NCBI GenBank assembly: GCA_017474845.1
Contig: JAFVGS010000024.1
Coordinates: 1 to 57,634, forward strand
Length of the DNA stretch: 57,634 nt
Reading direction: 5' to 3'
Origin: Prevotella sp.
GTDB lineage: Bacteria > Bacteroidota > Bacteroidia > Bacteroidales > Bacteroidaceae
Shown: positions 31,439-47,791 of the stretch, piece after piece
Position numbering within the stretch: position 1 is the stretch's first letter
How the letters are laid out: every line of letters begins with the position of its first letter
Program-made: the position numbers and the translations under genes
Notes under the pieces: generated by a model
Told to the model about the DNA's origin: nothing
What the model saw: only the letters and a program-made list of their open reading frames with translations
Databases searched by the model: none

Positions 31439-31446
31439 CAAAATTA
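31439..31446 (-). promoter_or_regulatory. -7 element for the CoA transferase
   Basis: The minus strand reads TAATTTTG 29 bases upstream of the start codon. Confidence 0.5.
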
Positions 31447-31514
31447 CATATTATTTCAGACATAGTATCGATTTTAAGACATAATAACATACTAACAACC
31501 TAATTTTCCCTAAA

Positions 31515-32312
31515 TTAGTTCGTTGACACTTTCATGATCACCTCATATTCTCCCGGGTCAATTTCCTCATACCGGCAAAAGACGGTGCCATAAGGTAAAT
31601 CCACCTGATAGATGGTGCCATAAGTGATCTCACCCTCTCCGTACTCCGAGATAATGTGCCTCTTATAGACTTCCCAGCGTTTCTTCGCAACGACTTCCGA
31701 ACTCACATAATCAATAGACGAGACTTCCCTTACAAGGCCATCCTCCTCTGTAATGGAGACTTGGGATGTCTGGCTACTTTTCTTATCCTCTGAAAAAACC
31801 TTTTCATAGACCACTCCTTCTAAGAAGATATCATCAGAGTTGGAACTATAACCGTCGCCTTCGGTAAAGCCACGACTTATTAAAGCCTGTCCGAACTTCT
31901 TTGCATCAGTGCCCAACTCCAGCCCAAGGAACTTCATGCGCTTACCACTTGCAGGAGCCTGAAGCTTAGAACCTTTGGCGGGCTGACTTGGGGTTTGGCC
32001 AGAGGCCCTCAGCAAACCTTCAAGAGTCACTGTTCCCTGGGAACTTGATGCTGCATTTGTCCTTTTGCCATTCTGAACACCCTTTTGAGAAGTTTTCGAC
32101 GTCTGACCACTCTGTCTCACAGTAACAGATTCCTGTTGGGACCGTTGTTCAGAACCCTTTGAGTTTTTGCTTTTATTAATTATGTCTTGAACACCTCCAA
32201 CTATCTCCACAGTCGTCTTAACGTCATCTAAAACCTGAGCCACTACAGGCTGTGAAGCAGCCGTCATCATAGCTACTGTCATTACCAAAGAATAAACTCT
32301 CGTTTTCATCAT
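31515..32312 (-). CDS. Secreted protein of unknown function with Ser/Gln-rich linker
   Basis: This 265-residue protein is not recognised. A signal peptide (MKTRVYSLVMTVAMMTAASQ) leads to a polar, low-complexity linker (about 45-120) rich in Ser, Gln, Lys and Thr. A folded C-terminal part (about 125-265) starts MKFLGLELGTDAKKFGQALI and contains beta-strand pairs such as TYGTIYQVDLPYGTVFCRY. The pattern of 'small module after MKFLGLELG' recurs in Bacteroidales secreted proteins, from memory. No close operon partner; hemolysin III follows upstream on the same strand with 46 bases between. Confidence 0.65.
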   Translation of the reverse strand: MMKTRVYSLVMTVAMMTAASQPVVAQVLDDVKTTVEIVGGVQDIINKSKNSKGSEQRSQQESVTVRQSGQTSKTSQKGVQNGKRTNAASSSQGTVTLEGLLRASGQTPSQPAKGSKLQAPASGKRMKFLGLELGTDAKKFGQALISRGFTEGDGYSSNSDDIFLEGVVYEKVFSEDKKSSQTSQVSITEEDGLVREVSSIDYVSSEVVAKKRWEVYKRHIISEYGEGEITYGTIYQVDLPYGTVFCRYEEIDPGEYEVIMKVSTN

Positions 32313-32358
32313 CGTTTTGATAGTTATTGTTCTTATGTTATATATAATGTATAGCCCG

Positions 32359-33042
32359 TTAGAGATACTCCATCAGCACGTCCCAGACGGCGATGATATG
32401 GCAGACGGAGCCTGCAAGGACGAAAAAATGGAACACAGAGTGCATGTATTTCTTCTGATGGAAGGTATAGAACACGGCACCCGTGATGTAACAGACACCC
32501 TCAGCAATAAGCCAGATGACGGCAGCCGGCGATACGGAGTCCATCAGCGGCCCGAAAGCTACGAGTACACTCAGCCCCATGCCGATGAAACAGAATGTCT
32601 CCACATTTGAATGTTCCTTCAGACGAATGAAACTGATAATCGTACCCACGATGGCACATGTCCACACAAACACGAACAGCGCCCAACCCCAATTAAGTGA
32701 AAAGTGAATAGTGAAAAGTGAGCATTTTGCTGCCGCGTTTCGTAGGGCAACAAGTGTCAAAGGCGAATACGAACCTGCGATGTGCCAATAGATGGCCGCA
32801 TGGTCCCATTTGCGCAGTCGCTCCTTCCATTTCGAGTGATGCTTCATCGAATGATAGAGCGTTGATGCCACATACGAGCCGAGCATGCCGAACAGGTAGA
32901 GAATCACCCCCCATCGTGCCCAGTTATTGTCGCTCTGGAAACACCACACCAAGAAGATCACACCGAATACCACACCCAGCAGGATACCCCCGCCGTGCGA
33001 CGCCGCATTCCATATTTCCTCCCGTTTTGTGTATCTGATCAT
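32359..33042 (-). CDS. Hemolysin III / TrhA (PAQR-type) membrane protein with repeat-encoded insertion
   Basis: The 227-residue protein has seven predicted membrane segments. Family signatures are HGGGILLGVVF, STLYHSMKHHSKWKERLRKW and, near the end, HQKKYMHSVFHFFVLAGSVC, with the histidines expected to bind metal. Between YSPLTLVALR and WGWALFVFVW, where relatives have only a short loop, lies a stretch NAAAKCSLFTIHFSLN. It is encoded by TCACTTTTCAC phrases (32695-32721). The insertion falls between membrane segments and keeps frame. TrhA members affect membrane energetics or lipid homeostasis; pore formation is not shown for most. Confidence 0.86.
   Translation of the reverse strand: MIRYTKREEIWNAASHGGGILLGVVFGVIFLVWCFQSDNNWARWGVILYLFGMLGSYVASTLYHSMKHHSKWKERLRKWDHAAIYWHIAGSYSPLTLVALRNAAAKCSLFTIHFSLNWGWALFVFVWTCAIVGTIISFIRLKEHSNVETFCFIGMGLSVLVAFGPLMDSVSPAAVIWLIAEGVCYITGAVFYTFHQKKYMHSVFHFFVLAGSVCHIIAVWDVLMEYL
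32695..32721. repeat. TCACTTTTCAC phrase repeat inside trhA
   Basis: On the coding strand the bases read TCACTTTTCACTATTCAC followed by TTTTCACTT. The same phrase order is found between genes at 27877-27908 and 54808-54830. It encodes CSLFTIHFSL within the hemolysin III protein. Confidence 0.8.
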
Positions 33043-33291: not shown

Positions 33292-33663
33292 ATGACCATC
33301 GATGGTTACAAAGATCGCGAGGTACTGATGGTGACTTACGAGTTCACACAGACAACAGACGTAGAAGGCCAGATGGCCGGTATCCCCCGCGGCGGTAAGC
33401 TCACTGTCCGTGTGAAGGCTCTCAACGATGGTACCCCCGACCTGCTCGCTTGGATGTGCGAACGCAGCCTGCCGAAGAACGGCGAGATCAAGTTCCTCGA
33501 GACGAAGACCAACAAGGAGATGAAGAGCATCAAGTTCACCAACGGCTACTGCATCAACTTCGAGGAGAAGTGGGAAGACAAGCTGGGTCACTTCGAGGAG
33601 ATCGAGATCACCTGTAAGCAAATCGAGTTCGGCAACGTGAAGTATGAAAACGACTGGGCATAA
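33292..33663 (+). CDS. TssD/Hcp-like tube protein, Bacteroidetes type
   Basis: The 123-residue protein resembles the Bacteroidetes T6SS tube protein TssD: IDGYKDREVLMVTYEFTQTT, GGKLTVRVKALNDG, EKWEDKLGHFEEIEITCKQI. It begins at MTIDG, about eight residues shorter at the N-terminus than the neighbouring copy (MAENVTPVVLAIDG). A stop codon in frame upstream rules out a longer form. No other T6SS genes (sheath, ClpV, baseplate) are in the window, so it may be an orphan tube or secreted-domain protein. It is followed by a broken paralogue. Confidence 0.8.
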   Translation: MTIDGYKDREVLMVTYEFTQTTDVEGQMAGIPRGGKLTVRVKALNDGTPDLLAWMCERSLPKNGEIKFLETKTNKEMKSIKFTNGYCINFEEKWEDKLGHFEEIEITCKQIEFGNVKYENDWA

Positions 33664-33786: not shown

Positions 33787-34153
33787 ATGGCAGAGAATGT
33801 AACACCAGTAGTCCTCGCAATTGATGGATTCGCAGAGAGAGAGAAGTAATGATGGTTGACTACAAGTTCGATCAGGCTATGGCGGCAAGGTGACCATCCG
33901 TGTAAAGGCACTGAATGACGGAAACAACGAGCTGATCGCCTGGATGCTCGACCCCACGAGCCCGAAGAATGTCTCAGTGAAGTTCGTGAACACCGTCGAC
34001 GGCGCAGCCATGAAGGAGCTGAAGGGCACCAACTGCTACTGCATCGACTACATTGAGAAGTGGGAAGACGGCCAGCAGCACTACGAGCAGATCGAGATCG
34101 TGTGCCAGAAGCTCGAGAACGGTCCTGTCGCTTACGACAATCCCTGGAAATAG
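33787..34153 (+). pseudogene. Second tssD-like gene with two frame lesions
   Basis: The frame begins MAENVTPVVLAIDGFAERE and then meets a TAA at 33847-33849. The homologous text resumes in a second frame as VMMVDYKFDQA, and in a third as YGGKVTIRVKALNDG to the natural end. The first shift is two extra bases inside a GAGAGAGAGA run (33834-33844). The second is a deletion that removes about a dozen residues of the loop present in the upstream copy. The remaining 3' part (33890-34153) is well conserved, so decay is recent or the lesions are assembly errors. Confidence 0.85.
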
Positions 34154-34194
34154 CAGCTTCTTCGATGCGCAGCATCAGGTAATTCCAAAATTTT

Positions 34195-34225
34195 CCGCAT
34201 ATTACCACAATATGCGGATTTTTTT
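34195..34225 (+). terminator. Terminator after the tssD-like genes
   Basis: CCGCATATT faces AATATGCGG perfectly with a five-base loop, followed by ATTTTTTT. It separates the tssD-like pair from the next operon. Confidence 0.88.
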
Positions 34226-34343: not shown

Positions 34344-34375
34344 TTTGGCGGTTTAAGAAATAATTCCTACCTTTG
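34344..34375 (+). promoter_or_regulatory. Promoter of the eight-gene envelope operon
   Basis: A -33 TTTG (34344-34347) and a -7 TACCTTTG (34368-34375) have the spacing expected for a strong Bacteroidetes promoter. The first start codon is 74 bases further on. No other good promoter was seen by eye inside the operon. Confidence 0.7.
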
Positions 34376-34449
34376 CCCCATGTAAGTGCTTTTTGGCATA
34401 AATTTAGTTAAGAATGACTACATCGTTAAATAATTAAAAACAAAAGATT

Positions 34450-35013
34450 ATGAAGACTATTAAGTTTTTCGCAGCAGCACTGCTGTTGTTCGCCTTTACG
34501 GCAAATGTGAATGCTCAGCGTACGCTTGACAAGAAGCAAATTAAGATTGCCGAAAAGACGGCCAAAGAGCATGAGAAAGAGGGATGGAAAGTGAAGCCGG
34601 GCACCCTGCCCCTGGTTGAACAGGAGAAGATGGCGCTGAGCTATCAGCTTGACATCGCTAACTGGCAGATTGGATCAGCCAGCAGTATCGGCACCGTCTA
34701 CGATGCCGCATTGGTATCCGCACTCGCTATCGCCAAGGCAAACTTAGCCTCAAACATCAAGACACAGCTCTCTGCAAAGATTGGTGTGGACGTGGGCAAC
34801 TCGCAAACAGGTATCGATGAAGCCAATTCGAAGGCTGAGGCTGCCATGAAGTCGCAGGCCATCACCGTCAATCAGACGCTCTCCAACCCAGATATCATCT
34901 ACCAGGCCTATCTGACACGCCCCAACGGCAGCATTGAGGTGACTGTGCAGATTGCCATCTCAAAGCATAAGTTAGACAAGCTGGTTGACGACATCTTCGA
35001 GAACGCGAAGTAA
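34450..35013 (+). CDS. Periplasmic LPP20-like protein (operon gene 1)
   Basis: The 187-residue protein has a signal peptide (FFAAALLLFAFTANVNA). After it comes a pattern seen in LPP20-type proteins: a helix of alternating Ala/Lys (VSALAIAKANLASNIKTQLS) and a late strand EVTVQIAISKHKLDK. The assignment is from pattern memory and is weak. It is the first gene after the strong promoter and lies one base upstream of the DUF4384 gene, so it is clearly part of the operon. Confidence 0.7.
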   Translation: MKTIKFFAAALLLFAFTANVNAQRTLDKKQIKIAEKTAKEHEKEGWKVKPGTLPLVEQEKMALSYQLDIANWQIGSASSIGTVYDAALVSALAIAKANLASNIKTQLSAKIGVDVGNSQTGIDEANSKAEAAMKSQAITVNQTLSNPDIIYQAYLTRPNGSIEVTVQIAISKHKLDKLVDDIFENAK

Positions 35014-35014
35014 G

Positions 35015-35917
35015 ATGACTGCTCGTTTATTGGTACTACTTGCCGCCTTCTTGGCACTGCCAGCCAGTGCCAAGAAGGAAGGGCGAGTGGCTAATGTTTC
35101 GGGGACGTATATGATAGAGATTCCATCATATATGTCACTCGACCAGGCAAAACATGAAGCATTGGTAAAAGCACAGAACCAGGCTATTGAAAATGAGTTT
35201 GGCTCAACAAATACCAATTATACCATCTCCTGGATTGATAATAATAGCAATAGTTCCGATGTCAGCATTCATTCCTTCAATCAAGGCGTGGTAAGGGGCG
35301 TCTGGCTGGGCGACGAAGCCGAACCCATATTCAAACAGATCATCCAAGACGGGAAGAACTGGCTGGAAGTGAAGGTGAAAGGAAAGGTGAGAGAGCTCAT
35401 CACTGCCGGAATAGAGTTTGAGGCCCAACCACTATGCATCGAGCCGAGAAAGGACCGCGCGACGACGGAATTCAAGAATGGTCAGGACTTGTTCCTATAC
35501 TTCCGTTCACCAGTTGACGGATATCTCACCGTGTTTCTTTTTGACAACACATCCAACGAGGTCTTTACGATGCTACCTTATCAGAGCAGCAGTTTAGGAC
35601 ATTACCGCATCAACCACGACGAAGATTACTTCCTGTTTGCGCCTTCCAAGGCCAAACCGGACGACGGTACAGTAGACGAACTTGTCATTACTTCTACAGA
35701 GGGGAAAACAGAGGAATTCAATTACATCTATGTCATTTTCTCCCCCAATGCTTTCTACAAAGTCAATTCGACCAAGGATCAGCAGAAAATCTCAGATGAA
35801 CTGGTCCTGCCGAGTTCGCTCCCATACAAGGACTTCAACAAATGGCTGATTAAATATCAGCAGAAGGACGAGGATATGCAAGTCATGCGCATACCCATAC
35901 ATATTACTAACAAATAA
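35015..35917 (+). CDS. Periplasmic DUF4384 protein (operon gene 2)
   Basis: The 300-residue protein has a signal peptide (MTARLLVLLAAFLALPASA). An N-terminal part (about 25-140) again has an LPP20/FlgT-like helix (SLDQAKHEALVKAQNQAIEN). A DUF4384 module follows (about 160-260: GQDLFLYFRSPVDGYLTVFL, FDNTSNEVFTMLPYQ). DUF4384 is known next to caspase-like genes in many bacteria, which fits operon gene 4. I chose the ATG at 35015, one base after the previous stop; an upstream frame start lies inside gene 1. Function is unknown. Confidence 0.8.
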   Translation: MTARLLVLLAAFLALPASAKKEGRVANVSGTYMIEIPSYMSLDQAKHEALVKAQNQAIENEFGSTNTNYTISWIDNNSNSSDVSIHSFNQGVVRGVWLGDEAEPIFKQIIQDGKNWLEVKVKGKVRELITAGIEFEAQPLCIEPRKDRATTEFKNGQDLFLYFRSPVDGYLTVFLFDNTSNEVFTMLPYQSSSLGHYRINHDEDYFLFAPSKAKPDDGTVDELVITSTEGKTEEFNYIYVIFSPNAFYKVNSTKDQQKISDELVLPSSLPYKDFNKWLIKYQQKDEDMQVMRIPIHITNK

Positions 35918-35929
35918 AGAACAATCAAC

Positions 35930-38900
35930 ATGAAAAAAATCCTGTTCTCTCTGTTCATATTACAATTATTCGTAGGAAAGATTTCTGCGCAGGTCAATAT
36001 GAATCTCAGTCTCGATGACTTTAACAACTCCATTCAAAGTGAGCATGAAAAATTCACAGACGAACAAATCAAAGAGTATACAGAATTCCGTGACAAGATC
36101 AATGCGGAATACGCTGATTTCATGGAGAAGCTATGGAAGGACTACCCTATCGAGGAAGGTGAGAAGAAACCTATCGAGAAACAGATAGAGCCTATCGAGT
36201 ACGACGAGAAAAAAGATGAGCGGTATCTGCAAGAACAAAAGCGATTGGAGGAGGAAAAGCGTCTTGCCGAAGAGAAAAAGCAGCAGGAGGAACAGCAGAA
36301 GCAGTTAGCTGAGGAAAAGCAGAAGCAGGAAGAACAGCAGAAGCAGCTTGCTGAGGAGAAACAGAAGCAGGAAGAACAGCAGAAGCAGTTAGCCGAAGAA
36401 AAGCAGAAACAGGAAGATCAGCAGAAGCAACTGGCTGAGGAAAAGCAAAAGCAGGAAGAACAACAGAAGCAATTAGCTGAAGAAAAACAGAAGCAAGAGC
36501 AGCAGCAGAAGCAGTTAGCTGAGGAAAAGCAGAAGCAGGAAGAACAGCAGAAGCAGTTAGCTGAGGAAAAGCAGAAGCAGGAAGAACAGCAGAAGCAGTT
36601 AGCTGAGGAAAAACAGAAGCAGGATGAACAGCAGAAGCAGTTAGCTGAGGAAAAGCAGAAGCAGGAAGAACAGCAGAAGCAGCTGGCTGAGGAAAAGCAG
36701 AAGCAGGAACAGCAACAGAAAGAGTTGGCTGAGGAAAAGCAGAAGCAGGAACAGCAGCAGAAAGAGCTGGCTGAGGAAAAGCAGAAGCAGGAGCAGCAGC
36801 AGAAAGAGCTGGCTGAGGAAAAGCAGAAGCAGGAACAGCAGCAGAAAGAACTGGCTGAGGAAAAGCAGAAGCAGGAGCAACAGCAGAAACAGTTAGCTGA
36901 GGAAAAACAGAAGCATGAGCAACAGCAGAAACAGCTGGCTGAGGAAAAGCAGAAGCAGGAGCAGCAGCAGAAACAGTTAGCTGAGGAAAAACAGAAGCAG
37001 GAGCAGCAGCAGAAACAGCTGGCTGAGGAAAAGCAGAAGCAGGAGCAGCAACAGAAGCAGTTAGCTGAGGAAAAGCAGAAGCAAGAGCAGCAGCAGAAGC
37101 AGCTGGCTGAAGAAAAGCAGAAACAGGATGAACAGCAGAAACAGTTAGCTGAGGAGAAGCAGAAGCAGGAGCAGCAGCAAAAACAGCTGGCTGAGGAGAA
37201 GCAGAAACAAGAACAGCAGCAGAAGCAACTGGCTGAGGAAAAGTTGAAGCAGGATGAGCAGCAGAAGCAGTTGGCTGAGGAGAAACAGAAGCAGGATGAG
37301 CAGCAGAAGCAGCTGGCCGAATTGAAACAGCAGCAGGAGCAGGAGAAACAACGTCTGGCTGAAGAAAGGAAGAAGTTGGAGGAACAACAGCAACAGTTGG
37401 CCGCACAGATACGTCAACAGGAAGAGCAACAGAAACTTCTGGAAGATCAGCAGAAACAAGACGAACTGAAGAAACTCCTCGAGGAGAAGAAGAAGAAGGA
37501 GGAGGAACAGCAGCAGTTAGCTGAGAAAGCAAAGCTGCAGCAAGAGCAGGAGAATCGCCTCGCTGAGAAGCAAAAGCAGCAACAAGAACAGGAACGTGCC
37601 CTGGCCGACAAGCAGAAGCAGCAACAGGAACAAGAGCGCGCCCTGGCCGACAAGCAGAAGCAGCAACAGGAACAGGAACGTGCCCTGGCCGACAGGCAGA
37701 AACAGCAACAGGAACAGGAACGTGCCCTCGCTGATAAGCAGAAGCAGCAACAGGAGCAGGAGCGTATCCTTGCCGAAAATCAGAAGCAGCAGCAGGAACA
37801 GGAACGTGCCCTCGCTGAACAGCAGAAGAAACAACAGGAACAGGAACAGCTCTTAGCTGAACAACAGAAGAAACAACAAGAACAGGAGCGTATCCTTGCC
37901 GAGAATCAGAAGAAACAGCAGGATCAGGAACGTGCCCTTGCCGAGAGTCAGAAGAAACAGCAGGATCAGGAACGTGCCCTTGCTGAAAATCAGAAGAAAC
38001 AGCAAGAACAGGAGCGTGCCCTTGCTGAGCAGCAGAAGCAGCAACAGGAGAAAGAACGTGCTTTCGCCGAGCAGCAGAAGCAGCAGCAAGAGAAAGAACG
38101 TGCTTTCGCCGAACAGCAGAAGCAGCAGCAAGAGAAGGAGCGTGCTTTCGCCGAGCTCCAGAAGCAGCAGCAAGAGAAGGAGCGTGCTTTCGCTGAGCAG
38201 CAGAAGCAGCAGCAGGAGAAAGAGCGCGCCCTCGCAGAACAGCTGAAGAAACAGCAGGAACAGGAACAGCTCCTGGCTGATAAGCAGAAACAGCAGCAGG
38301 AGAAAGAACGCTCTCTCGCTGAACAGCAGAAGAAGCAACAGGAACAAGAGCGTCTCTTCGCCGAGAACCAGAAACAACAGCAGGAGCAGCAGCGCCAGTT
38401 GGCTGAGCAAAAGCAGAAACAACAGGAGCAGGAACAGCTCCTAGCCGAGAAACAGAAGCAGCAGGAAGAACTGCAGCGCAAGTTGGAAGAGCAGCAAAAG
38501 CAGCAGCAGGAACTGCAACAGAAGCTGGAACAGCTTCAGAAGCAGCAGAAAGAACAGGAGAACCAACTCGCTGAGAAGAAAAAGCAACAAGAAGAACAAG
38601 AGCGTCTCTTAGCTGAACAGAAGAAGAAGCAGGAAGAGAAAGAACGTCAGCTGGCCGAGCAGAAGAAGAAACTTGAGGAGGAACGTTCGAAACCCCTCGA
38701 GGCTGTGGTCGTACCTATCAAGGAAGACAAGAAAGAGCAGCCCAAGCCCCCCGTGCCCATTCCTGAGAACGACAAAGTCCTCGCCACCAACAGCTTTGAG
38801 TACTACGGCACACCGATGGGTGTGAGATGGGGTAACATCAAGCAGTTCAAACTCAAAGGTACCACGCCAAAGGACTTTGCCAACGGCTACCGCGAACTCT

Positions 38901-39886
38901 CGAAGAGCGAATATAGCAACTTGGTTCACGACTGTCTGAAGTTGCGCGATGACTATGAGCTCTGTGACTGGGCCTATTACAAGATGCTTCAGGCTCTCTC
39001 CGAGGATGCCTGCGGCAAAGGCACCAACGAAGCAGTATTCCTGCAGGGATACATCTTCAACCAGTCCGGCTACCAGATGCGTTTTGCCAAGGAGGCTGGC
39101 ACCAACAAGTTGCATCTGCTGACCCGAATCAATGGTACGCCCTATAACTGTGGCCGCACATCCGTCGACGGCAAGATCTTCTGTGTCATGGACGGCTCAA
39201 AGCTAAATAACCTCGAGATCTGCGAGGCTTCGGCACAGAAGGAACAGGAGATGAGCCTCGCTGTGAACAAGCTGCCCAAGCTGAAGAATGACCCGTCAGA
39301 CAACCGTAAAGTTATCTCACGTTTCGTCTCGGTAGAAGCCCAGACGAGTGTCAATAAGAACATGCTCAAGTTCTTCAGCGACTATCCCTCATCCTATGAC
39401 GGCAACGACATGATGTCACGCTGGGCATACTACGCCAACACGCCCATTACACCAGAAGTCAAGGAAAAGGTCTATCCGCAATTGGAACAATACGTCAAGG
39501 GCGTGTCGAAGTTCGCTGGTGCCAACAAGTTGCTCAACTGGGTTCAGATGGGACTGACATACGAATACGACGAGAAGGTATGGGGACAAGACCGGGCCTT
39601 CTTCGCTGAGGAGAGTCTCTACTACCCCTACTGCGACTGCGAGGACCGCAGCATCCTGTTCTCACACCTGATGCGAGACCTGCTCGACCTTGATGTCGTT
39701 TTGGTCTATTACCCCGGACACCTTGCCACCGCCGTATGCTTCAACGAGCCGGTGGAGGGTGACTACATCATGGTAAACGGCAGGAAGTTCACCGTGGCTG
39801 ACCCCACATACTATAATGCCAATGTAGGTAAGACCATGAGCCGCATGGACAATTCACAAGCGAAAGTTATACTCTTAAAACGATAA
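35930..39886 (+). CDS. Giant exported coiled-coil protein with C-terminal transglutaminase-like domain (operon gene 3)
   Basis: The 1318-residue protein has a signal peptide (MKKILFSLFILQLFVGKISA), a short helical head, then about 820 residues (100-920) of 14-residue repeats such as EEKQKQEEQQKQLA and DKQKQQQEQERALA. Fourteen residues equal two heptads; as one helix the rod would be about 120 nm, far longer than a periplasm is wide. The C-terminal domain (940-1318) has a transglutaminase-like triad: C1235 or C1237 (YCDCEDRS), H1264 (PGHLATAV) and D1291 (VADPTYY). This suggests a cysteine protease or cross-linker on a long stalk. At DNA level the rod is a 42-base tandem repeat. Confidence 0.85.
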   Translation: MKKILFSLFILQLFVGKISAQVNMNLSLDDFNNSIQSEHEKFTDEQIKEYTEFRDKINAEYADFMEKLWKDYPIEEGEKKPIEKQIEPIEYDEKKDERYLQEQKRLEEEKRLAEEKKQQEEQQKQLAEEKQKQEEQQKQLAEEKQKQEEQQKQLAEEKQKQEDQQKQLAEEKQKQEEQQKQLAEEKQKQEQQQKQLAEEKQKQEEQQKQLAEEKQKQEEQQKQLAEEKQKQDEQQKQLAEEKQKQEEQQKQLAEEKQKQEQQQKELAEEKQKQEQQQKELAEEKQKQEQQQKELAEEKQKQEQQQKELAEEKQKQEQQQKQLAEEKQKHEQQQKQLAEEKQKQEQQQKQLAEEKQKQEQQQKQLAEEKQKQEQQQKQLAEEKQKQEQQQKQLAEEKQKQDEQQKQLAEEKQKQEQQQKQLAEEKQKQEQQQKQLAEEKLKQDEQQKQLAEEKQKQDEQQKQLAELKQQQEQEKQRLAEERKKLEEQQQQLAAQIRQQEEQQKLLEDQQKQDELKKLLEEKKKKEEEQQQLAEKAKLQQEQENRLAEKQKQQQEQERALADKQKQQQEQERALADKQKQQQEQERALADRQKQQQEQERALADKQKQQQEQERILAENQKQQQEQERALAEQQKKQQEQEQLLAEQQKKQQEQERILAENQKKQQDQERALAESQKKQQDQERALAENQKKQQEQERALAEQQKQQQEKERAFAEQQKQQQEKERAFAEQQKQQQEKERAFAELQKQQQEKERAFAEQQKQQQEKERALAEQLKKQQEQEQLLADKQKQQQEKERSLAEQQKKQQEQERLFAENQKQQQEQQRQLAEQKQKQQEQEQLLAEKQKQQEELQRKLEEQQKQQQELQQKLEQLQKQQKEQENQLAEKKKQQEEQERLLAEQKKKQEEKERQLAEQKKKLEEERSKPLEAVVVPIKEDKKEQPKPPVPIPENDKVLATNSFEYYGTPMGVRWGNIKQFKLKGTTPKDFANGYRELSKSEYSNLVHDCLKLRDDYELCDWAYYKMLQALSEDACGKGTNEAVFLQGYIFNQSGYQMRFAKEAGTNKLHLLTRINGTPYNCGRTSVDGKIFCVMDGSKLNNLEICEASAQKEQEMSLAVNKLPKLKNDPSDNRKVISRFVSVEAQTSVNKNMLKFFSDYPSSYDGNDMMSRWAYYANTPITPEVKEKVYPQLEQYVKGVSKFAGANKLLNWVQMGLTYEYDEKVWGQDRAFFAEESLYYPYCDCEDRSILFSHLMRDLLDLDVVLVYYPGHLATAVCFNEPVEGDYIMVNGRKFTVADPTYYNANVGKTMSRMDNSQAKVILLKR
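36280..38690 (+). repeat. 42-base tandem repeat encoding the coiled-coil rod
   Basis: Units such as CAGTTAGCTGAGGAAAAGCA, continuing with GAAGCAGGAAGAACAGCAGA, recur about every 42 bases, many nearly identical. They drift into a related CAG/GAA-rich phrase set after about 37550. Long identical arrays like this are prone to copy-number change and to assembly collapse. It is coding and is not a CRISPR array: no spacers are present. Confidence 0.9.
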
Positions 39887-39898
39887 ATATCTCAAATT

Positions 39899-41584
39899 AT
39901 GTTATTACGTACCTTATTATTAATATTAGGAACAGTCAGTAGTCTTGGTATTGCCAAAGCCCAGAGCGATATCGACACAAAGATTGCAGTAAACGATGTG
40001 AAGGATCCCAACCTCGTTGTGCTGATTATTGCCAACGAGCATTATAAAGAACAGGGATTCGAGGTGGAAGACGTACCCTTTGCCGTCCGTGATGGAGCAG
40101 TCTTCGAGGCCTATTGCAAAAAGACACTGGGTGTGAAAGATGACAACATCAACTTCATCTACGACGCCACAGGAGGCAAGATCAGGGCTGCGCTCAACAA
40201 GCTGAGCAGCCGTCTGAATGCCTATGCCGGCAATGCCAGGGCCATCGTGTACTACAGCGGTCACGGCATGCCCGACGAGGCGACCAAGGATGCCTACCTG
40301 CTGCCTGTCGACGGACTGCCTGCCGATCCGGAATCAGCCATTAAGACAAGCTGGATCTACAAGCGTTTTGAGAGCATGAACACCAAGAGCATCACCGTAT
40401 TCCTCGATGCCTGCTTCAGCGGTGCAAGCCGTGAGGGAAACACCCTTTCGAAGGGTGCCCGCGGCGTAGCCATCAAGACGAAGGAGAGCCCTGTGGGCAA
40501 CAATACCGTCGTCTTCTCCGCTGCCCAAGGCACTGAAACGGCCTATCCATATCAGGAGAAACAGCACGGTCTGTTCACCTACTACATTCTGGAGAAGCTG
40601 CAGCAGTCAAAGGGAAACGTGACACTTGGCGAACTCTCCGACTATGTGACACAGCAGGTGAGACTGAAATCATCGGCCAACGGCATGAAAGACCAGACTC
40701 CTATCGTCGCTGCCGCAGAGAGCAACAAGGACTGGCGCAACTGGAAGATGGCTTCCACTCCCGCCACGAAATATGTGAACACGACGGTGGCCATTCCCTC
40801 GGGCGGCGGCAGTGCTCCTGCAGCAGATAAGCCCAGTCGTCCTGCCGCCACAGCTACGGCCAGCACAGCGACATCAAAGGCGTTGCCCTCAAAGGCTGGT
40901 GTCTATGAGCTGCTGCCAGGCATCTATTATGAAATGATCCGTATCGACAAAGGCACATTCCTCATGGGGTCGAAAATTACCAATGGCCATAGTTCCTTCT
41001 ACATGAACCAACCGATCCATGAGGTGGCTCTCGGCGCCTACACCATCGGCAAGACCGAAGTATCGCAGGAACTGTGGCAGGCCGTGATGGGCAGTAACCC
41101 ATCAGAGAACAAGAACCCCAAGAACCCTGTGGAGAATGTGTCGTGGGAAGACTGCCAGGAGTTTATCTCCAAGCTCAACGAGAAGTGCGGCACCCGCTTC
41201 CGTCTTCCTACTGAGGCTGAATGGGAATATGCCGCCGATGCCCGTGTCAGCAGCAACTGCGACACCTACTCCGGCAAGACCCATTTAAGAAATATCGCCC
41301 ACAGAGGTTCGTCTACAGCCCCCTGCGGCACCTATGAGGCCAATGCACTCGGACTGCAAGATATGACTGGCAACGTAGCCGAGTGGTGCGAAGACTACCT
41401 TGGACTCTACTCCCCTGCCCGTCAGGTGGATCCCCGCGGCCCATCGAAGGGTTACCAGCGTGTGGTCAAGGGCGGTTCGTACAAGGACGATCCGGAAATG
41501 ATGCGCAACAGCTTCCGTGGTCACATGAGGGCCTACGACAAAGCCCCCACCGTGGGTCTGAGACTGGTGCATGATGCGAAATAA
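39899..41584 (+). CDS. Exported caspase-like peptidase fused to an FGE-sulfatase (SUMF) domain (operon gene 4)
   Basis: The 561-residue protein has a signal peptide (LLLILGTVSSLGIAKA). A C14 caspase-fold domain (about 30-290) contains the catalytic dyad H122 (YYSGHGMPD) and C172 (VFLDACFSGAS). After a Pro/Ala/Ser linker, a formylglycine-generating-enzyme-like domain (about 345-561) shows FLMGSK, EVSQELWQAVMGSNP, RLPTEAEWEYAA, GNVAEWCED and VKGGSY. Both modules are known in bacterial caspases, where the SUMF part often mediates binding. Here the pair is exported. The likely substrates or ligands are unknown; operon gene 3 is a candidate. Confidence 0.88.
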   Translation: MLLRTLLLILGTVSSLGIAKAQSDIDTKIAVNDVKDPNLVVLIIANEHYKEQGFEVEDVPFAVRDGAVFEAYCKKTLGVKDDNINFIYDATGGKIRAALNKLSSRLNAYAGNARAIVYYSGHGMPDEATKDAYLLPVDGLPADPESAIKTSWIYKRFESMNTKSITVFLDACFSGASREGNTLSKGARGVAIKTKESPVGNNTVVFSAAQGTETAYPYQEKQHGLFTYYILEKLQQSKGNVTLGELSDYVTQQVRLKSSANGMKDQTPIVAAAESNKDWRNWKMASTPATKYVNTTVAIPSGGGSAPAADKPSRPAATATASTATSKALPSKAGVYELLPGIYYEMIRIDKGTFLMGSKITNGHSSFYMNQPIHEVALGAYTIGKTEVSQELWQAVMGSNPSENKNPKNPVENVSWEDCQEFISKLNEKCGTRFRLPTEAEWEYAADARVSSNCDTYSGKTHLRNIAHRGSSTAPCGTYEANALGLQDMTGNVAEWCEDYLGLYSPARQVDPRGPSKGYQRVVKGGSYKDDPEMMRNSFRGHMRAYDKAPTVGLRLVHDAK

Positions 41585-41624
41585 GAATAATAAACATCAT
41601 TAATAATTAAACATCAATAACAAA

Positions 41625-42449
41625 ATGAAAAAGCTACTTACATTAGTCACTGTCTTTATGATGGCAGTATGTGCTTCGGCACAGGATGAACAATTGACAA
41701 TCTTCGTCGAGAAGTTCGTTAACAACAGTTCCCAGAAGGACATTCTTGTGCGCAACCTCCACGAGGCCATTATCTCCGGCCTCTCCGGCACTGGCCGACT
41801 CATCGTGATTGATGCTGGCAACTATGTTGGCAAGCCCCTCCCCAAGGAGCGCCGCGATCGTGTCAAGGCCCTGGGTGAGAAATTCGACTACTTCCTGGAG
41901 GGCACGCTGAACTCCGTCACATCAAAGCATGTCTCCACAAAGAACGGCTCCTACTATTCAGCCACCTCCAACTTCACACTGATCCTCACCGACCCTCACA
42001 CGGGTATTGAGAAAGTGAGAAAGGTCTATTCAAGCGAGTCTACCGGCGGTACCGACGAGGAGGCCATCCTGGAGTCAGTCACCAGCGCAAGCGGCTACAT
42101 GAAGAGGTTTGTTGAGGACAACTTCAAGGTGGAAGCCGTCGTTAAGGGTCTGGATGATGTTGACCTGAAGAAGAACGTCGTAAAGACCTGCTATGTCTCC
42201 ATTGGTGAGGATATGGGTATAGCCAAGGGCCAGATCTTCGAGGTGTTTGCCAACATCGAGGTGCTGGGCGAGCCGGTACGCAAGAAGGTGGCTGAGCTGA
42301 AGTGCGACGAGGTGCTTAGCGGCACTATGTCACACTGCTCCGTGAAGAGCGGCGGCGACCTGATCAAGAAATATTTCGACGAAGGCATTACCCTGACGGT
42401 TATCAGCCGCGCCAGAAAGCAGAGCATTCTTTCAGGAATAGGACTGTAA
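41625..42449 (+). CDS. CsgG-like periplasmic protein (operon gene 5)
   Basis: The 274-residue protein has a signal peptide (LLTLVTVFMMAVCASA). The N-terminal half looks like the CsgG/TolB-N fold: QLTIFVEKFVNN, a helix NLHEAIISGLSGTGRLIVID, FDYFLEGTLNSV, and a tolerant strand pair NFTLILTDPHTG. The C-terminal part (about 165-274) is a beta domain with GIAKGQIFEVF. CsgG-like proteins usually work in export or in outer-membrane-associated assembly. The match is moderate and inferred by eye. Gap to gene 4 is 40 bases. Confidence 0.65.
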   Translation: MKKLLTLVTVFMMAVCASAQDEQLTIFVEKFVNNSSQKDILVRNLHEAIISGLSGTGRLIVIDAGNYVGKPLPKERRDRVKALGEKFDYFLEGTLNSVTSKHVSTKNGSYYSATSNFTLILTDPHTGIEKVRKVYSSESTGGTDEEAILESVTSASGYMKRFVEDNFKVEAVVKGLDDVDLKKNVVKTCYVSIGEDMGIAKGQIFEVFANIEVLGEPVRKKVAELKCDEVLSGTMSHCSVKSGGDLIKKYFDEGITLTVISRARKQSILSGIGL

Positions 42450-42453
42450 GCAT

Positions 42454-42981
42454 ATGATGAAGTACAAGAGACTGTTCTCCCTTTGCATCCTGATGCTGAC
42501 GGCGATGGCACTCCACGCCCAGGACAGCAGGGTGAAAGTAGAACTGCTGACCATCGACGGGCCGAAGGCTATCTTCAGTTCCGAAGGCTACGGCAGCGAC
42601 AAGAAAGATGCCATTGCTAACGCTCAGATAGAGGTTCTGAAGAAGGTGCTCTATGAAGGCGTGATGGATTTCAATGGCAGCTATCCCATCGTGAAGAGCG
42701 GGCGTGACACCAACGCGTGGCTGCGCCGCTTCTTCAACGAGGATGGCAGGAACACGGTCTACAAGGCATTCCTCGGTGAGGTCGAACTGGTAGGCGACTT
42801 CGATACTTCGCCCTCTGGTGAGACTCACTGCCATTCCAACGTCGTCGTCTTCCACCAGCGGCTTCTGAAAGACGCCGAGAATCAGGGCGTCACCAAGTCT
42901 GAGGGTGCACAGGTACCTGTCAAACCCACTGCCGGAAACCGCAAGGACCCCAAGAGAACTTCGAAAACCTTTACAGACTAA
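42454..42981 (+). CDS. Small periplasmic protein, LPP20/FlgT-like start (operon gene 6)
   Basis: The 175-residue protein has a signal peptide (LFSLCILMLTAMALHA). The motif EGYGSDKKDAIANAQIEVLK recalls the helix of FlgT-N or LPP20-type domains, which is also seen in genes 1 and 2 of this operon. It ends in a polar basic tail. Two adjacent ATGs at 42454 and 42457 could start translation. It follows gene 5 by four bases and precedes the CHASE2-like gene by three. Function is unknown. Confidence 0.65.
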   Translation: MMKYKRLFSLCILMLTAMALHAQDSRVKVELLTIDGPKAIFSSEGYGSDKKDAIANAQIEVLKKVLYEGVMDFNGSYPIVKSGRDTNAWLRRFFNEDGRNTVYKAFLGEVELVGDFDTSPSGETHCHSNVVVFHQRLLKDAENQGVTKSEGAQVPVKPTAGNRKDPKRTSKTFTD

Positions 42982-42984
42982 GGC

Positions 42985-44232
42985 ATGCTTTTGGAAAGCC
43001 TCCGAGGATGGATTAAGAGCAATCGGAAGACGCTGAGAGTCTCGCTATTGGTGAGCTTGGCCATCACATTGTTCAGCTATGTGGTGGCCAACTCAGCCTA
43101 TCCGATGGCGGGCGAATATGCTGCGCAGAAGGAAATCAGCGACTTTAAGAAGTTCTTCGGACAGCAGATGGACAACGTCCCCGACAGCCTGCTGTTCATC
43201 AACGTCTGCTACGACAAGCAGCTCACGCCCTTTGAGGAACAGGGCATGCCTGTAGGCGACCTGGTCATCACCGACCGTGAGAAACTGTTGCAACTGCTGA
43301 CCATCGCCAAGGAGGCCGACAACTACCGGTACATCTTCATGGATGTACTCTTTGAACAAGGCATTGAGACCCCGACAGACTCGGCCCTCTTCCAGACCAT
43401 CGCCTCCATGGACAGGCTGGTCATTCCCATACATCAGGGCGTGACGCTGGCCGACAGCCGGCTCACCGCCAAGGCTGCCAACGCCGATTACCTCACCACG
43501 TGGAAGCAGCTGACCTGCGCCCACATCCAGTTCCTTCACGGTGACACCATCCCCTCCGTGGCACTCAAGATGTATGCCGACAGGAACCATCTCGAAGGCT
43601 TCGGCATCACGCCACACTTGGGAGGACTATGGTATACCGACAACGGCCGACTCTGCCAGAACGGGGCGACACTGTTTGTCGATGTCACAATCACAGGCAG
43701 CCTGTTCAACGAAGAGGGCCAGATGCGGGAACGTAACTACATCTACCTCGGTGCTGACCTGCTCGACCTCGACTCCATCATCCCCGTCAAAGAGCAGATT
43801 GAAGACAAAATCCTTGTCATCGGAGACTTCAAGAGCGACGTCCACAGCACATACGTCGGTGCTCAGCCAGGCTCTGCCATCTGCATCAATGCTTTTCTCA
43901 TGCTGATGAAAGGGAAGCACCTTGTCAACTGGCTGGCAGTCCTGCTGTTGTTCATCGTCTATACCACCGTGGGCACTTTCTATCTACGCGGCACCTCCTT
44001 CCAGGCTCTCTTCGCACATCCGTGGCTGGGTGTGCTGATGTCATTCCTCAGCACGGCAACGCTGTTCTTAGTCATTGCCATTATCGCCTATTGGAACGGC
44101 ATCGCCTTCAACATGTGGGTACCAACCACCATCTACTCGTTCATCGATACTTATGTGCAAAAACGTAACTTATATAAGAAGAAGAAAAATGAAAAGAATC
44201 TTGTCCATCATGCTCCTAAGTCTGGGGCTTAA
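42985..44232 (+). CDS. CHASE2-like membrane sensor without an output domain (operon gene 7)
   Basis: The 415-residue protein has one N-terminal membrane segment (about 17-38), an extracytoplasmic domain (about 40-315) and three further C-terminal membrane segments, the CHASE2 topology. CHASE2-like text includes LLFINVCYDKQLTPFEEQGM, IFMDVLFEQ, the repeat-containing VIPIHQG, and ILVIGDFKSDVHSTYVGAQP followed by INAFLMLMKGKHLVNW. Typical CHASE2 proteins carry a kinase, cyclase or GGDEF domain after the third segment. Here the tail is only about 25 residues, lysine-rich. It must signal through a partner or have no catalytic role. Confidence 0.82.
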   Translation: MLLESLRGWIKSNRKTLRVSLLVSLAITLFSYVVANSAYPMAGEYAAQKEISDFKKFFGQQMDNVPDSLLFINVCYDKQLTPFEEQGMPVGDLVITDREKLLQLLTIAKEADNYRYIFMDVLFEQGIETPTDSALFQTIASMDRLVIPIHQGVTLADSRLTAKAANADYLTTWKQLTCAHIQFLHGDTIPSVALKMYADRNHLEGFGITPHLGGLWYTDNGRLCQNGATLFVDVTITGSLFNEEGQMRERNYIYLGADLLDLDSIIPVKEQIEDKILVIGDFKSDVHSTYVGAQPGSAICINAFLMLMKGKHLVNWLAVLLLFIVYTTVGTFYLRGTSFQALFAHPWLGVLMSFLSTATLFLVIAIIAYWNGIAFNMWVPTTIYSFIDTYVQKRNLYKKKKNEKNLVHHAPKSGA

Positions 44233-44809
44233 CATGGCCTATGCCGACGATTTCAAAGTGCTCCTGGTCAACGATGCCAGCCTGAAATACAAGAGCGGCA
44301 AAACCGTGAAGATCGGCGACGTGTTCAAGAGTGCCGAGGACATCAACTGGCAGAAAGAAAAACAGGCCGTCAAGGCATACAACATGACGACCAAGAAGCA
44401 GGTTATGTTTCTTGGCAAGAAGTATATCCGTAAGTCAGGCAGCGAAACCATGGTCAACCAGAAATTTCTGTCCACCCATAGTCCCGGTGATACAATCCAA
44501 GCCAAATTGGCCAGCGTCTTTGCAAATGAGTATAATCTGCTCGACTCTATCATGGTAGACACCGAAGTAAACCTCGACGAGAAGAGTTTCTTCCAGGCCA
44601 CATATAACTACGGCGACGCGAAGATTACCAAGCGACTCCCCCGCGAAAAGGGCATCGTAATCATCGACAGGTCCATCTTCACCATTGGCAACCAAAAACT
44701 GGAGCCCCGCGACATCTACCTCTCCATCGATTACGTCAACGAACTGATGGTCAGCACCCCCGTCAAATACGGTATTGACTTATTCGTCATTCCCGAGAAA
44801 CTCGAGTGA
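44189..44809 (+). CDS. Periplasmic protein of unknown function (operon gene 8)
   Basis: The 206-residue protein has a signal peptide (MKRILSIMLLSLGLNMAYAD). The mature part opens FKVLLVNDASLKYKSGKTVK and IGDVFKSAEDINWQKEKQAV, a beta-sandwich-like pattern I cannot place in a family. It ends in a strand-rich module (VKYGIDLFVIPEKLE). I chose the ATG at 44189. That start overlaps the CHASE2-like gene by 44 bases, which argues for coupled translation and for a shared function. A bidirectional terminator follows. Confidence 0.7.
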   Translation: MKRILSIMLLSLGLNMAYADDFKVLLVNDASLKYKSGKTVKIGDVFKSAEDINWQKEKQAVKAYNMTTKKQVMFLGKKYIRKSGSETMVNQKFLSTHSPGDTIQAKLASVFANEYNLLDSIMVDTEVNLDEKSFFQATYNYGDAKITKRLPREKGIVIIDRSIFTIGNQKLEPRDIYLSIDYVNELMVSTPVKYGIDLFVIPEKLE

Positions 44810-44883: not shown

Positions 44884-44924
44884 ACAAATCCCCGCAGGGC
44901 ATTTTCAGCCTTGCGGGGATTTGT
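44884..44924. terminator. Bidirectional terminator between two convergent operons
   Basis: ACAAATCCCCGCAGGGC faces GCCTTGCGGGGATTTGT with one mismatch and a seven-base loop. It serves the eight-gene operon from the left and the ATPase pair from the right. Confidence 0.85.
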
Positions 44925-44926
44925 AA

Positions 44927-45415
44927 TTATTGGTTATATACTCGCCGATAGTGGCGGCGTTCCAAGAAACACATGAAAGTCTGCTCCAAATACCAGTAGA
45001 TGGCGAGGGCAGCTTGACAAGCGGCGATGTAGAAGGCAATCAGCTTCTTGTCGGGAATCAGTTCCACCAGGTTCAACGTCAGATAGGTGTAGATAATGAG
45101 CAGGACCACCGTGTAATTCTCCTGCATCATCCGCTGGACGTTGTGGACATGATAGTCGATAATCTCATTGACGAGCTGTCGTGTCTCAGGATGGTCTTTC
45201 CCCAAGCAGGTACAGAACATATCGTAAGCCTTCTCATAGTAATAATCAGCAGGTCCACGCTTGCAGATTTCAAGACTGGCATCGAGGTTCATAAACTCCA
45301 AGAGATCGTAATCATCTTCATTATAGCCGTCAACCTGTTTGTATCTGGCATAGCCCCTTGCCTTCTTGATGAAATCACGGGCCAAAGCGAGAGTGTTATC
45401 TTTGTCTTTCATCAT
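44927..45415 (-). CDS. Small membrane protein with tetratricopeptide-like head
   Basis: I do not recognise this 162-residue protein. Its first half (about 1-95) is helical with a TPR-like feel (YYYEKAYDMFCTCLGKDHPE, TRQLVNEIIDYHVHNV). Two membrane segments follow (VVLLIIYTYLTLNLVELI and AFYIAACQAALAIYWYLE), then a short basic tail. It lies 33 bases downstream of the AAA+ ATPase gene on the same strand, so the two are probably co-transcribed. It faces the envelope operon across the shared terminator. Confidence 0.65.
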   Translation of the reverse strand: MMKDKDNTLALARDFIKKARGYARYKQVDGYNEDDYDLLEFMNLDASLEICKRGPADYYYEKAYDMFCTCLGKDHPETRQLVNEIIDYHVHNVQRMMQENYTVVLLIIYTYLTLNLVELIPDKKLIAFYIAACQAALAIYWYLEQTFMCFLERRHYRRVYNQ

Positions 45416-45448: not shown

Positions 45449-47791
45449 TCAGGCGCTGAAGCCTGACACCACTTTGTGATGGGGCTTCAGCTGGACGGTT
45501 TGGGGACGGAAGCGCTCGAAGGCCTTAGTGACGTCGGAGGCTTCGATGCGCTGGAAGTCAACAGATAACGCAAAGAGGTCACCTTCGGCATTCATGGCAG
45601 AGGCGTCACCTGCATTCATGGCGGAGATGACACGGTCGGCCATAGCGGGAATGATGCCGTTGCGGACGAACTGCTCTATCCAGCGAGCGTTGCCGAAATG
45701 CTGGTCCTTCGCCTTCAAGGCCTGGTCGATGGCGCTGCGCATCTCCTTGGAGGCCTCGGGAGAGAGGGTGTAGTCATCTCGCTCGAAGAGCCGCATGGCA
45801 ATCTCCATCAGCTGGGCGGCACTGTAGTCGTCGAACTGGTAGCGATAGGGGAAACGGCTGGAGAGTCCGGGGTTGGAGTTGAGCATGGCGTCCATCTCCT
45901 GGGTGTAGCCCGCGAAGACGATGAGCATATCGGGGTTGGGCTGCGTGAGGACGGTGAGCAACGAGTCGAGCACACGGGCGCCGAAGTCCTTCTTGTCGTC
46001 GTTGCTGACGCTGAGGTTGTAGGCCTCGTCGATGAAGAGCACATTGCCCTTGGCTTCCTCGAGGATGCCCTTCATGTTCTCCTCCGTCTGTCCAATATAC
46101 TGTCCCACGAGACGTGTACGATCTACGGCGATGACCTCACCCTTGGAGAGGAGTCCGAGGGAGTGGTAGATTCTGCCGAGCTTGCCAGCGACAGTGGTCT
46201 TGCCTGTGCCGGGATTGCCTGTGAAGACGCAGTGGTAGACCTGTTCCTCGCTGTTACGGAGCCCCCTGCGGCTTCGCTCCTGGAAGAGTCGCGTCTGATT
46301 GGCCATCGACTGTATGCCTTGCTTCACATTGTCGAGTCCGATCATCTCACGCAATTCGCGCATGCTCTCCTCGAAAGGCGAGCCCTTGCTGGTGAGTTTG
46401 TCGAAGGGGATGTCTTCTTGCTGAAGCAGCGTGGTCTCGTCATCCGCCATGAGGGGAATGGCGCGCTGGAGGAACCTTGGTCTCACCTCCTCGGCAATGA
46501 AACGCCGGATATCGTCGCGCGACCAGCCGGCAAGTGCACCTTGTTCCCAGCCTTGGATGATGGTGCGTGCGAGGCGGTCCTTCGTGGCGGCGGAGGGTGC
46601 GAGATTGCTGACGAGAAGTTCGCGGTAGAAGACCTGCACGAGGTCGAAGGCGGTATAGGGCTCCTGCTCAATCACGCTCTTGGCGTTGAAGAGTCGTCGC
46701 AGCGAGGGGAATTGTTCCATCAGCTGGTCGGTCTCCTGTCGTGAGCCGCAGAGCCAGAGGAAGGTCTTGCCGTAAGAGCAGCGCACCTTGTTGATGACTT
46801 TCCGCATGATCACCTTGCCGCTGGCTCCAGTGAGCTCGCTGAGGTGAGTCAGGCAGAGAATCTTCATGTCACAGTCCTCAATCTCCTCGGGCAACAGCTC
46901 GTAGGGATTGGTGCGCGAGACGTCGAAGAGTGTGGCGCAGTCGATGCAGTTGAGCGTGTAGTCGGACAAGATGTTCTGCTGGAACAGTTTGAGGATTCCC
47001 GTCGATACGTCGTTGTTGCGGGTATTGATGATCAGGTTGCCTTCGGGCTGAAAGGCCTCCCCTCCGAGCTCCTTGCGGAACTCGTTGTACAGGAGCAGCA
47101 GCCGTTCCTGCATCATCTTCTGTCGGAACTGGGCCATGCCAGGCTGTCGGGCCACCATGTCCCATTCTGTTTCGATCGTCTGCATGCAGGAGGTCAGCGT
47201 GTGCTCGATGCCATAGCTCTGGCAGGCGACAGGCTTTCCAGCCTTGACATTCAGAAGATCATCGAGGGCAAAGTCGACGCGCACAAGGCTTTCGCCTGGG
47301 CCGACGACAAAAAGGATGTACCGTCCGGGCAGCCAGATGTTCAAGCTGGGAATCTCGTAGGAGGCCTTGCGCTTGGTGTGCTTCTCCTCGCAGCCGGCAT
47401 CGCTGGCGCACATCGGATAGTAGGTATCGGTATAGACATAACAGGTGAAGCGGTGGTTTCTCAATTCAGCACCTGACCTCGCCCTCAAAGTAACGGCTAC
47501 GGGGCCCTCGCCATACACTCCCTTCTCGCAGCCGGGCATCACCTCCACATCGATGGAGGTCACATCATCAATCCATTGTTGCTTTTCATGGTCAGATTTC
47601 ATCAGTACGTCGGCCACCCTGTCGTCAATCGGTCTCGGGAAAGGGAGCCCTGACGGTTCTGCCTCATCAGGCTCATCAAAGGTGTCCGTGGTGTCCAGGT
47701 CGTCTTCATCATCGTAGTCCAGTGCATCGCCGATAAAGTCCTGGAGCAGCTTTTCAAAATCATCATCATACTGTGTCTTGTCATTCTTCAT
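45449..47791 (-). CDS. CbxX/CfqX-type AAA+ ATPase with large N-terminal extension
   Basis: The 780-residue protein ends in a CbxX/SpoVK-like AAA+ domain: Walker A GNPGTGKT (about 522-529), Walker B NVLFIDEAYN (about 585-594), sensor IVFAGYTQEM and arginine finger region NPGLSSRFPYRYQF. The middle (about 300-420) reads like a degenerate second ATPase domain (MKILCLTHLSELTGASGKVI, RKVINKVRCSYGKTFLWLCG) without a P-loop. The N-terminus is very acidic (DDFEKLLQDFIGDALDYDDE) and then beta-rich. The closest known relatives by layout are EccA-like chaperones. The gene is preceded by an unusual leader. Confidence 0.82.
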   Translation of the reverse strand: MKNDKTQYDDDFEKLLQDFIGDALDYDDEDDLDTTDTFDEPDEAEPSGLPFPRPIDDRVADVLMKSDHEKQQWIDDVTSIDVEVMPGCEKGVYGEGPVAVTLRARSGAELRNHRFTCYVYTDTYYPMCASDAGCEEKHTKRKASYEIPSLNIWLPGRYILFVVGPGESLVRVDFALDDLLNVKAGKPVACQSYGIEHTLTSCMQTIETEWDMVARQPGMAQFRQKMMQERLLLLYNEFRKELGGEAFQPEGNLIINTRNNDVSTGILKLFQQNILSDYTLNCIDCATLFDVSRTNPYELLPEEIEDCDMKILCLTHLSELTGASGKVIMRKVINKVRCSYGKTFLWLCGSRQETDQLMEQFPSLRRLFNAKSVIEQEPYTAFDLVQVFYRELLVSNLAPSAATKDRLARTIIQGWEQGALAGWSRDDIRRFIAEEVRPRFLQRAIPLMADDETTLLQQEDIPFDKLTSKGSPFEESMRELREMIGLDNVKQGIQSMANQTRLFQERSRRGLRNSEEQVYHCVFTGNPGTGKTTVAGKLGRIYHSLGLLSKGEVIAVDRTRLVGQYIGQTEENMKGILEEAKGNVLFIDEAYNLSVSNDDKKDFGARVLDSLLTVLTQPNPDMLIVFAGYTQEMDAMLNSNPGLSSRFPYRYQFDDYSAAQLMEIAMRLFERDDYTLSPEASKEMRSAIDQALKAKDQHFGNARWIEQFVRNGIIPAMADRVISAMNAGDASAMNAEGDLFALSVDFQRIEASDVTKAFERFRPQTVQLKPHHKVVSGFSA

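Follow-up and report, generated by a model that had tools for sequence, protein, structure and literature searches.

We analysed a 57,634-nucleotide stretch of Prevotella sp. DNA (contig JAFVGS010000024.1, called the window here), in which an operon of eight genes occupies positions 34450-44809 of the plus strand. Our leading interpretation, to which we give a little less than an even chance, is that this operon encodes an envelope sensing-and-cutting module. The best reading of its parts is that a CHASE2 receptor without a kinase (gene 7) acts via exported cysteine hydrolases (genes 3 and 4) on substrates in the envelope, where we infer the sensing, the proteolysis and the substrates. What caspases do in bacteria, and what CHASE2 domains do, is largely not established. 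An operon that joins both of them to another exported enzyme, and in which this association is statistically linked across the order Bacteroidales, offers a testable receptor-enzyme pair in bacteria of the gut and rumen.

The link between CHASE2 and cysteine-protease-type enzymes, which had been proposed from the sequence alone, was also recovered from an independent starting point, a search of 393 genomes from the order for CHASE2 (PF05226). This search found 20 CHASE2 genes in 17 genomes. Eleven of the 20 lie within 6 kb of a caspase gene, compared to 0.29 expected from random placement. The 6-kb distance was picked after viewing the map, but no additional caspase is found within 10 kb; the expectation includes no phylogenetic correction, and some loci come from the same genus. 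In one of the 17 genomes, CHASE2 (E 5.8e-24) and caspase (E 1.4e-12) are fused in a single protein of 1307 residues (L251:6637-10557, minus strand; homologous loci are referred to by such numbers). The caspase search around CHASE2 did not list this fusion despite its caspase match, and other caspases were therefore possibly missed as well. Moreover, CHASE2 neighbours TPR-CHAT genes in L253 and L259 and gene 3 in L266, so that for 15 of the 20 CHASE2 genes a caspase, CHAT or transglutaminase-like gene is a near neighbour or a fusion partner. The other five are found on contigs of about 5 kb (L256, L268) or in one genus (L260, L262, L264), and their neighbours were not included in the Pfam scan. 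Except for the fusion, the CHASE2 frames (n=19) are 374-461 residues long and leave little space for a kinase, although those of L256 and L269 reach the contig end and may be cut. Finally, a locus of the window's own genus (L006) combines gene 7, a gene-8-like protein (34% identity over 100 residues) and a caspase in a genome without a gene 3 match, and one cysteine enzyme may therefore replace the other.

The second survey started from gene 3, whose C-terminal domain was found in 64 genomes out of 299 for the genus and in 52 out of 395 drawn across the phylum (the window genome is counted in both). The neighbourhood comparison drew on 120 sources, comprising the window itself, 41 regions from genomes of the genus and 78 named loci. 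The latter are the best 78 of at least 576, and the sample therefore leans to close relatives. Removal of nine sources with an identical gene-3 end left 111 non-redundant loci, among which near-identical pairs may remain. Within the same-strand run of gene 3, the gene 1 family was found at 64 loci, CHASE2 (including the gene 7 form) at 41, gene 2 at 36, caspase at 29, gene 8 at 20, gene 5 at four and gene 6 at three. Gene 2 is accompanied by gene 1 in all 36 of its runs, and CHASE2 and caspase occur together at 14 of the 111 loci. A core of five genes (1, 2, 3, 7 and 8) on one strand is likewise present at 14 of the 111 loci. The cultured relative Prevotella ruminicola KHT3 (L085) also carries the core. 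The core genes diverge in a correlated manner (Mantel r 0.61-0.97 for ten pairs, none of 999 permutations being as high), and the domain divergence of the caspase correlates with that of the core at r 0.32-0.55, against 0.53-0.83 for the core in the same loci. The lack of coupling between caspase and core that whole-length comparison had first suggested (r -0.12 to 0.20) proved to be an artefact of variable extra domains.

The sequence-only reading had proposed a system of eight genes, putatively an envelope stress or signalling pathway. Its association of gene 3 with genes 1, 2, 7 and 8 is upheld by these neighbourhoods, but the complete set is found at three of the 111 loci only (the window, L007 and L047). 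That the eight genes stay together across species is also contradicted in part by gene 5, seen at six loci, by gene 6, seen at four, one of them by a weak match (L130, 3e-5), and by 30 loci at which the run of gene 3 lacks all six partner families counted. In the window the caspase block separates gene 3 from gene 7, in L007 and L047 it comes before gene 1, and in L040 and L081 the caspase is upstream on the opposite strand, as is gene 5. Because of this variable position, genes 4-6 look like an optional cassette. In Xylanibacter rodentium (L126:1010-5768) a WD40 protein followed by a TPR-caspase is encoded upstream of genes 1-2-3.

CHASE2 is an extracytoplasmic sensor domain that is often part of a kinase. 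Gene 7 (42985-44232) itself matches none of the Pfam families at E<=1. Its earlier description as CHASE2-like is supported by its relatives: four of the ten members of the gene 7 subfamily match PF05226 (best 2.4e-9), and profile comparison of gene 7 with 13 CHASE2 relatives, each with a PF05226 match at E<=1 (best 1e-22), gave 95.6%. Pfam detects no kinase, cyclase or other output domain in this divergent membrane protein. It consists of an N-terminal membrane helix, a large domain and C-terminal membrane helices, placed by crude hydropathy at residues 17-35, ~313-334 and 350-368. In a CHASE2 kinase, according to the accessible part of its description, one membrane helix precedes the domain and three follow it (PMC5192318); the third C-terminal helix was not found in gene 7. 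Gene 8 (44189-44809) encodes an exported protein without a firm family, and at all 20 loci where it is in the run of gene 3 it is preceded by gene 7. Around CHASE2 in the order, a small protein of a family termed c21 is encoded immediately after 13 of the 20 genes and after one intervening caspase gene in three more. We had named this family FecR-like by eye, a name that we withdraw since comparison with FecR gave 0.1-1.7%. Comparison of gene 8 with c21, signal peptides removed, gave 0.3-0.4% and does not show a relationship.

Gene 3 (35930-39886) encodes a signal-peptide-like start, a long helical stalk and a C-terminal transglutaminase-like domain (38768-39883). The stalk is encoded by 42-bp tandem repeats (36282-38471) that form two arrays, of 24.7 copies (36282-37317, 87% matches) and 19.6 copies (37568-38389), with longer-period rows up to 38471. 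This corresponds to about 44 copies of a 14-residue repeat within an E/K/Q-rich stretch of about 820 residues. Among the 20 loci with gene 8 the protein is 482 to 1318 residues long. The catalytic triad of the transglutaminase-like family PF01841 is Cys-His-Asp, in that order, and this order is kept in the gene 3 domain at all 111 loci; in a distant set it is Cys-His-Asp in 17 of 20 and Cys-His-Glu in the other three. The window's gene 3 scores 13.4 bits against PF01841 (cut-off 23; E 0.095), and its domain exceeds the cut-off of no other Pfam family either. Among 57 relatives, 41 reach E<=1 against Transglut_core (best 2.8e-4), and eight have a match to another transglutaminase-like model. 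The best named matches of gene 3 are records of Prevotellaceae, Prevotella and Xylanibacter. Searches of solved structures with profiles of the gene 3 domain and of the CHASE2, caspase, DUF4384-like, gene 1 and gene 5 families returned no relevant match.

Gene 4 (39899-41584) supplies the second of the two cysteine-protease-type catalytic sets noted in the sequence-only reading, both of which were recovered. Its caspase domain (PF00656, E 4.9e-20, 72.7 bits, cut-off 21.4) contains a His-Cys dyad in the motifs GHG and DACFSG, a pattern found in 34 of 38 caspase homologues. It is joined to an FGE-type domain (PF03781, E 9.1e-40) which had been overlooked. Active FGE has a catalytic cysteine pair near the C-terminus. 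No cysteine is present within the last 64 residues of gene 4, the position of the pair being taken from general knowledge of the family rather than from an alignment.

Export signals were called by a crude rule. Seven signal peptides had been proposed: genes 1, 2, 4, 5, 6 and 8 pass the rule, but gene 3 has the hydrophobic core and fails the cleavage test, its start being signal-peptide-like by eye. Among relatives, signal-peptide-like starts occur in the caspases (32 of 38) and in the proteins of gene 2 (34 of 40), gene 8 (18 of 20) and gene 3 (94 of 121), against a background of 172 of 499 opposite-strand genes. Gene 2 (35015-35917) is DUF4384-like: its own match (E 0.0012) is under the Pfam cut-off, and 13 of 14 relatives match at E<=1 (best 3.7e-7). 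Gene 5 (41625-42449) has no Pfam match to CsgG (PF03783) at E<=1, and its profile comparison with two CsgG-family proteins, signal peptides removed, gave 95.3% over 205 columns. Gene 5 is thus probably CsgG-like, as had been suggested, but nothing was found that ties it to the assembly of the rest. The two small exported proteins, genes 1 (34450-35013) and 6 (42454-42981), had been said to share a FlgT/LPP20-like helix with gene 2. LPP20 similarities of 75-93% for the three proteins proved to be mostly signal peptide and dropped to 26% (gene 1), 2% (gene 2) and 18% (gene 6) once it was removed. Gene 1 is at most possibly LPP20-like, and neither gene 1 nor gene 6 has a firm family.

Since no output domain was found in gene 7, and since signal-peptide-like starts in the neighbours exceed the background, the simplest reading is that the signal would be kept outside the inner membrane, where it would control exported cysteine hydrolases. 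Gene 7 would sense a ligand or the state of the envelope. Having no cytoplasmic output, it would pass the signal on beyond the inner membrane in two ways, by binding gene 8 and by holding or releasing the gene 3 enzyme, which could reach its substrate via the helical stalk. Genes 1, 2, 5 and 6 may serve the complex as tethers or as a scaffold at the outer membrane, and gene 4 would be a second, exchangeable protease. Proteins of the envelope or the cell surface would as a result undergo limited proteolysis or become cross-linked, under a control like that of LapD over LapG. It is possible, if rather doubtful, that this represents a widespread and undescribed signalling route in the Bacteroidales, in which a CHASE2 receptor without cytoplasmic output heads a pathway wholly outside the inner membrane and the hydrolases (transglutaminase-like, caspase, CHAT) are swapped under a conserved receptor core.

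Several observations weigh against a sensing-and-cutting module. The transglutaminase-like match of the window's gene 3 falls under the Pfam cut-off, and the gene-3 profile reaches only 12% against 17 Transglut_core domains, though Cys aligns with Cys; the predicted folds rest on profile comparison. By crude hydropathy the L251 fusion has three membrane helices after CHASE2, and its caspase should therefore be cytoplasmic. The caspase of a CHASE2 fusion protein from the cyanobacterium Trichodesmium is also predicted to be cytoplasmic, as stated in the accessible part of the report (PMC3501461). Secreted caspases do not fit with one single topology for all of these proteins. Furthermore, the correlated divergence of the core is confounded with host phylogeny, and the caspase domain follows gene 3 less tightly (r 0.33) than the core does. 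CHASE2 is absent from the run of gene 3 at 70 of the 111 loci. At 20 gene-3 loci from the phylum-wide draw, of which 19 lie outside the order, the profiles detected neither CHASE2 nor caspase nor gene 2, although they may miss remote forms; in this analysis the combination of CHASE2, caspase and gene 3 is therefore seen within the order only. These 20 loci contain a gene-1-like gene in the fetched stretch in 11 cases, five of them on the strand of gene 3, and a pair of families termed c3 and c8 on that strand in four.

In the LapD-LapG system an inner-membrane receptor governs a periplasmic transglutaminase-like cysteine protease. The operon resembles this system, as described in the accessible parts of PMC4359373 and PMC3032545, in that a receptor in the inner membrane would control a periplasmic enzyme of the same type. 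It differs in that gene 7 is without a Pfam family, none of the 24 families listed for 57 domains of gene 3 is of the LapG type, a cyclic di-GMP part is lacking, and caspase, DUF4384-like and CsgG-like proteins are present in addition. Since Pfam finds neither the LapG-type protease family in the gene 3 domains nor the cytoplasmic domains of LapD in gene 7, the best reading is that the operon may work like LapD-LapG without being a member of it. The Trichodesmium protein (PMC3501461, PMC2853523, accessible parts) likewise pairs CHASE2 with a caspase; it is a single fused protein whose caspase is predicted to be cytoplasmic, whereas the operon encodes separate exported proteins and a transglutaminase-like enzyme. 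The architecture of gene 4 is that of the metacaspase-FGE proteins (33 of 671 in PMC3501461), alongside which the accessible part of that paper describes no operon with such content. The BiofilmReg operon of Burkholderia, in the accessible part of PMC5192318, also combines a CHASE2 membrane sensor with exported proteins, but its CHASE2 belongs to a histidine kinase with a response regulator, and none of the eight genes has a kinase or regulator match in Pfam. In the accessible parts of the open-access literature, which does not cover subscription journals, we found no account of this operon or of a CHASE2-transglutaminase-like pairing, and none that joins CHASE2 with caspase and FecR, CHASE2 with "CHAT domain", or LPP20 with DUF4384. 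This suggests that, while the CHASE2-caspase pairing is already in print, its form as a separate exported operon with a transglutaminase-like enzyme is undescribed.

An unlikely alternative to the sensing-and-cutting module is the assembly of a surface structure, in which the stalk and CsgG-like proteins would form or anchor a surface layer that is cross-linked by the transglutaminase-like domain, and CHASE2 would be a passive anchor in the membrane. The rise of an α-helix is 0.15 nm per residue, and as one straight helix the stalk of about 820 residues would measure about 120 nm, which exceeds the periplasm. The families that recur in related runs, which include PEGA/beta-barrel (c8), CarboxypepD_reg/BACON/Laminin_G (c13) and LPP20 (c3) proteins, would also suit this explanation. 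However, at loci without gene 3 CHASE2 is found close to caspases or CHAT, which are not cross-linkers, and a gene 3 of more than 730 residues is seen at 15 of the 20 loci with gene 8 but is rare at loci without gene 8, for which the median is 527 residues.

That the genes have no common function, and that an insertion site has gathered exported genes whose neighbours are conserved by coincidence, we regard as improbable. In support of it, a haemolysin III/acetyl-CoA hydrolase flank is found beside differing gene-3 loci in 15 of the 111 cases, with variable gene content, the complete set of eight is rare, and in 30 of the 111 gene 3 runs each of six partner families (CHASE2, caspase, gene 1, gene 2, c3 and c8) is missing. 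The excess of caspases near CHASE2, the L251 fusion and the succession of genes 7 and 8 at 20 of 20 loci speak against coincidence.

Programmed death or a caspase-type phage defence is more improbable again. Gene 4 matches the caspase model of PADLOC (E 9.9e-11), and the accessible parts of the literature (PMC3501461, PMC8195603) treat caspase-FGE and caspase-CHASE2 proteins in this context; against this, Pfam finds no NTPase among the eight genes, the products look exported, and the seven genes scanned with PADLOC (all except gene 3) gave no other match at E<=0.1. The least probable alternative, an accessory function in type IX secretion with a GldK/PorK-like FGE part and a caspase acting on secreted cargo, draws on GldK (TIGR03525) being the best NCBIfam match of gene 4 (E 9.6e-21) and lying above the cut-off in eight of nine genomes selected for carrying the operon or much of its core, but gene 4 reaches 74.5 bits against a cut-off of 350 and is the sole GldK match of the ninth genome, the window's own (a 2.15-Mb assembly, 59% complete), and several core loci lack gene 4.

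The sequence-only reading had also described one promoter, eight co-directional genes with short gaps or an overlap, and a terminator at the end, a layout that was borne out. Consecutive genes are separated by 1, 12, 12, 40, 4 and 3 bases, and genes 7 and 8 overlap by 44. A motif scan places a promoter of the Bacteroidetes type, TTTG-N20-TACCTTTG, at 34344-34375; on the plus strand of the window this motif occurs at 22741, 34344 and 52568 only. In 29 of 87 runs (window included) it lies no more than 250 nt 5' of the first gene, compared to none of 87 control segments inside gene 3, and it stands 91-120 nt before the first-gene start also in L040-L044, L081, L086, L087 and L092. Between 33000 and 45500 the plus strand has two terminator-like sites, one before the promoter (34194-34218) and one after gene 8, an intrinsic terminator with a 17-pair stem (44884-44924). 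The terminator scan overall gave 19 sites against 15.7 in shuffles, a number that alone carries little information. With a promoter before gene 1 and terminator-like sites flanking the operon, the eight genes are predicted to form one transcription unit, and a single transcript is likely.

The haemolysin III/acetyl-CoA hydrolase flank lies at 29881-33042 in the window and is shared with L040-L044, L053, L056, L080, L086-L089, L092 and L106; it is perhaps a gene-exchange site. A reading of these genes as a two-component system beside some of the loci proved wrong. Two TssD/Hcp-like genes lie between this flank and the operon on the plus strand, at 33292-33663 (TssD match, E 7.6e-28) and ~33890-34153 (called by eye only). 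A link to type VI secretion was rejected since a TssD homologue is present at one of the 111 loci, the window alone. Downstream, a SpoVK/CbbX/EccA-like AAA ATPase gene (45449-47791, spore_V_K match 4.3e-71) is encoded on the minus strand together with 44927-45415, convergent with the operon. Its homologues occur at five other loci of the 111, three of them (L045, L080 and L088) at about 50% identity, and in L045 the homologue sits after gene 8 on the same strand as the operon.

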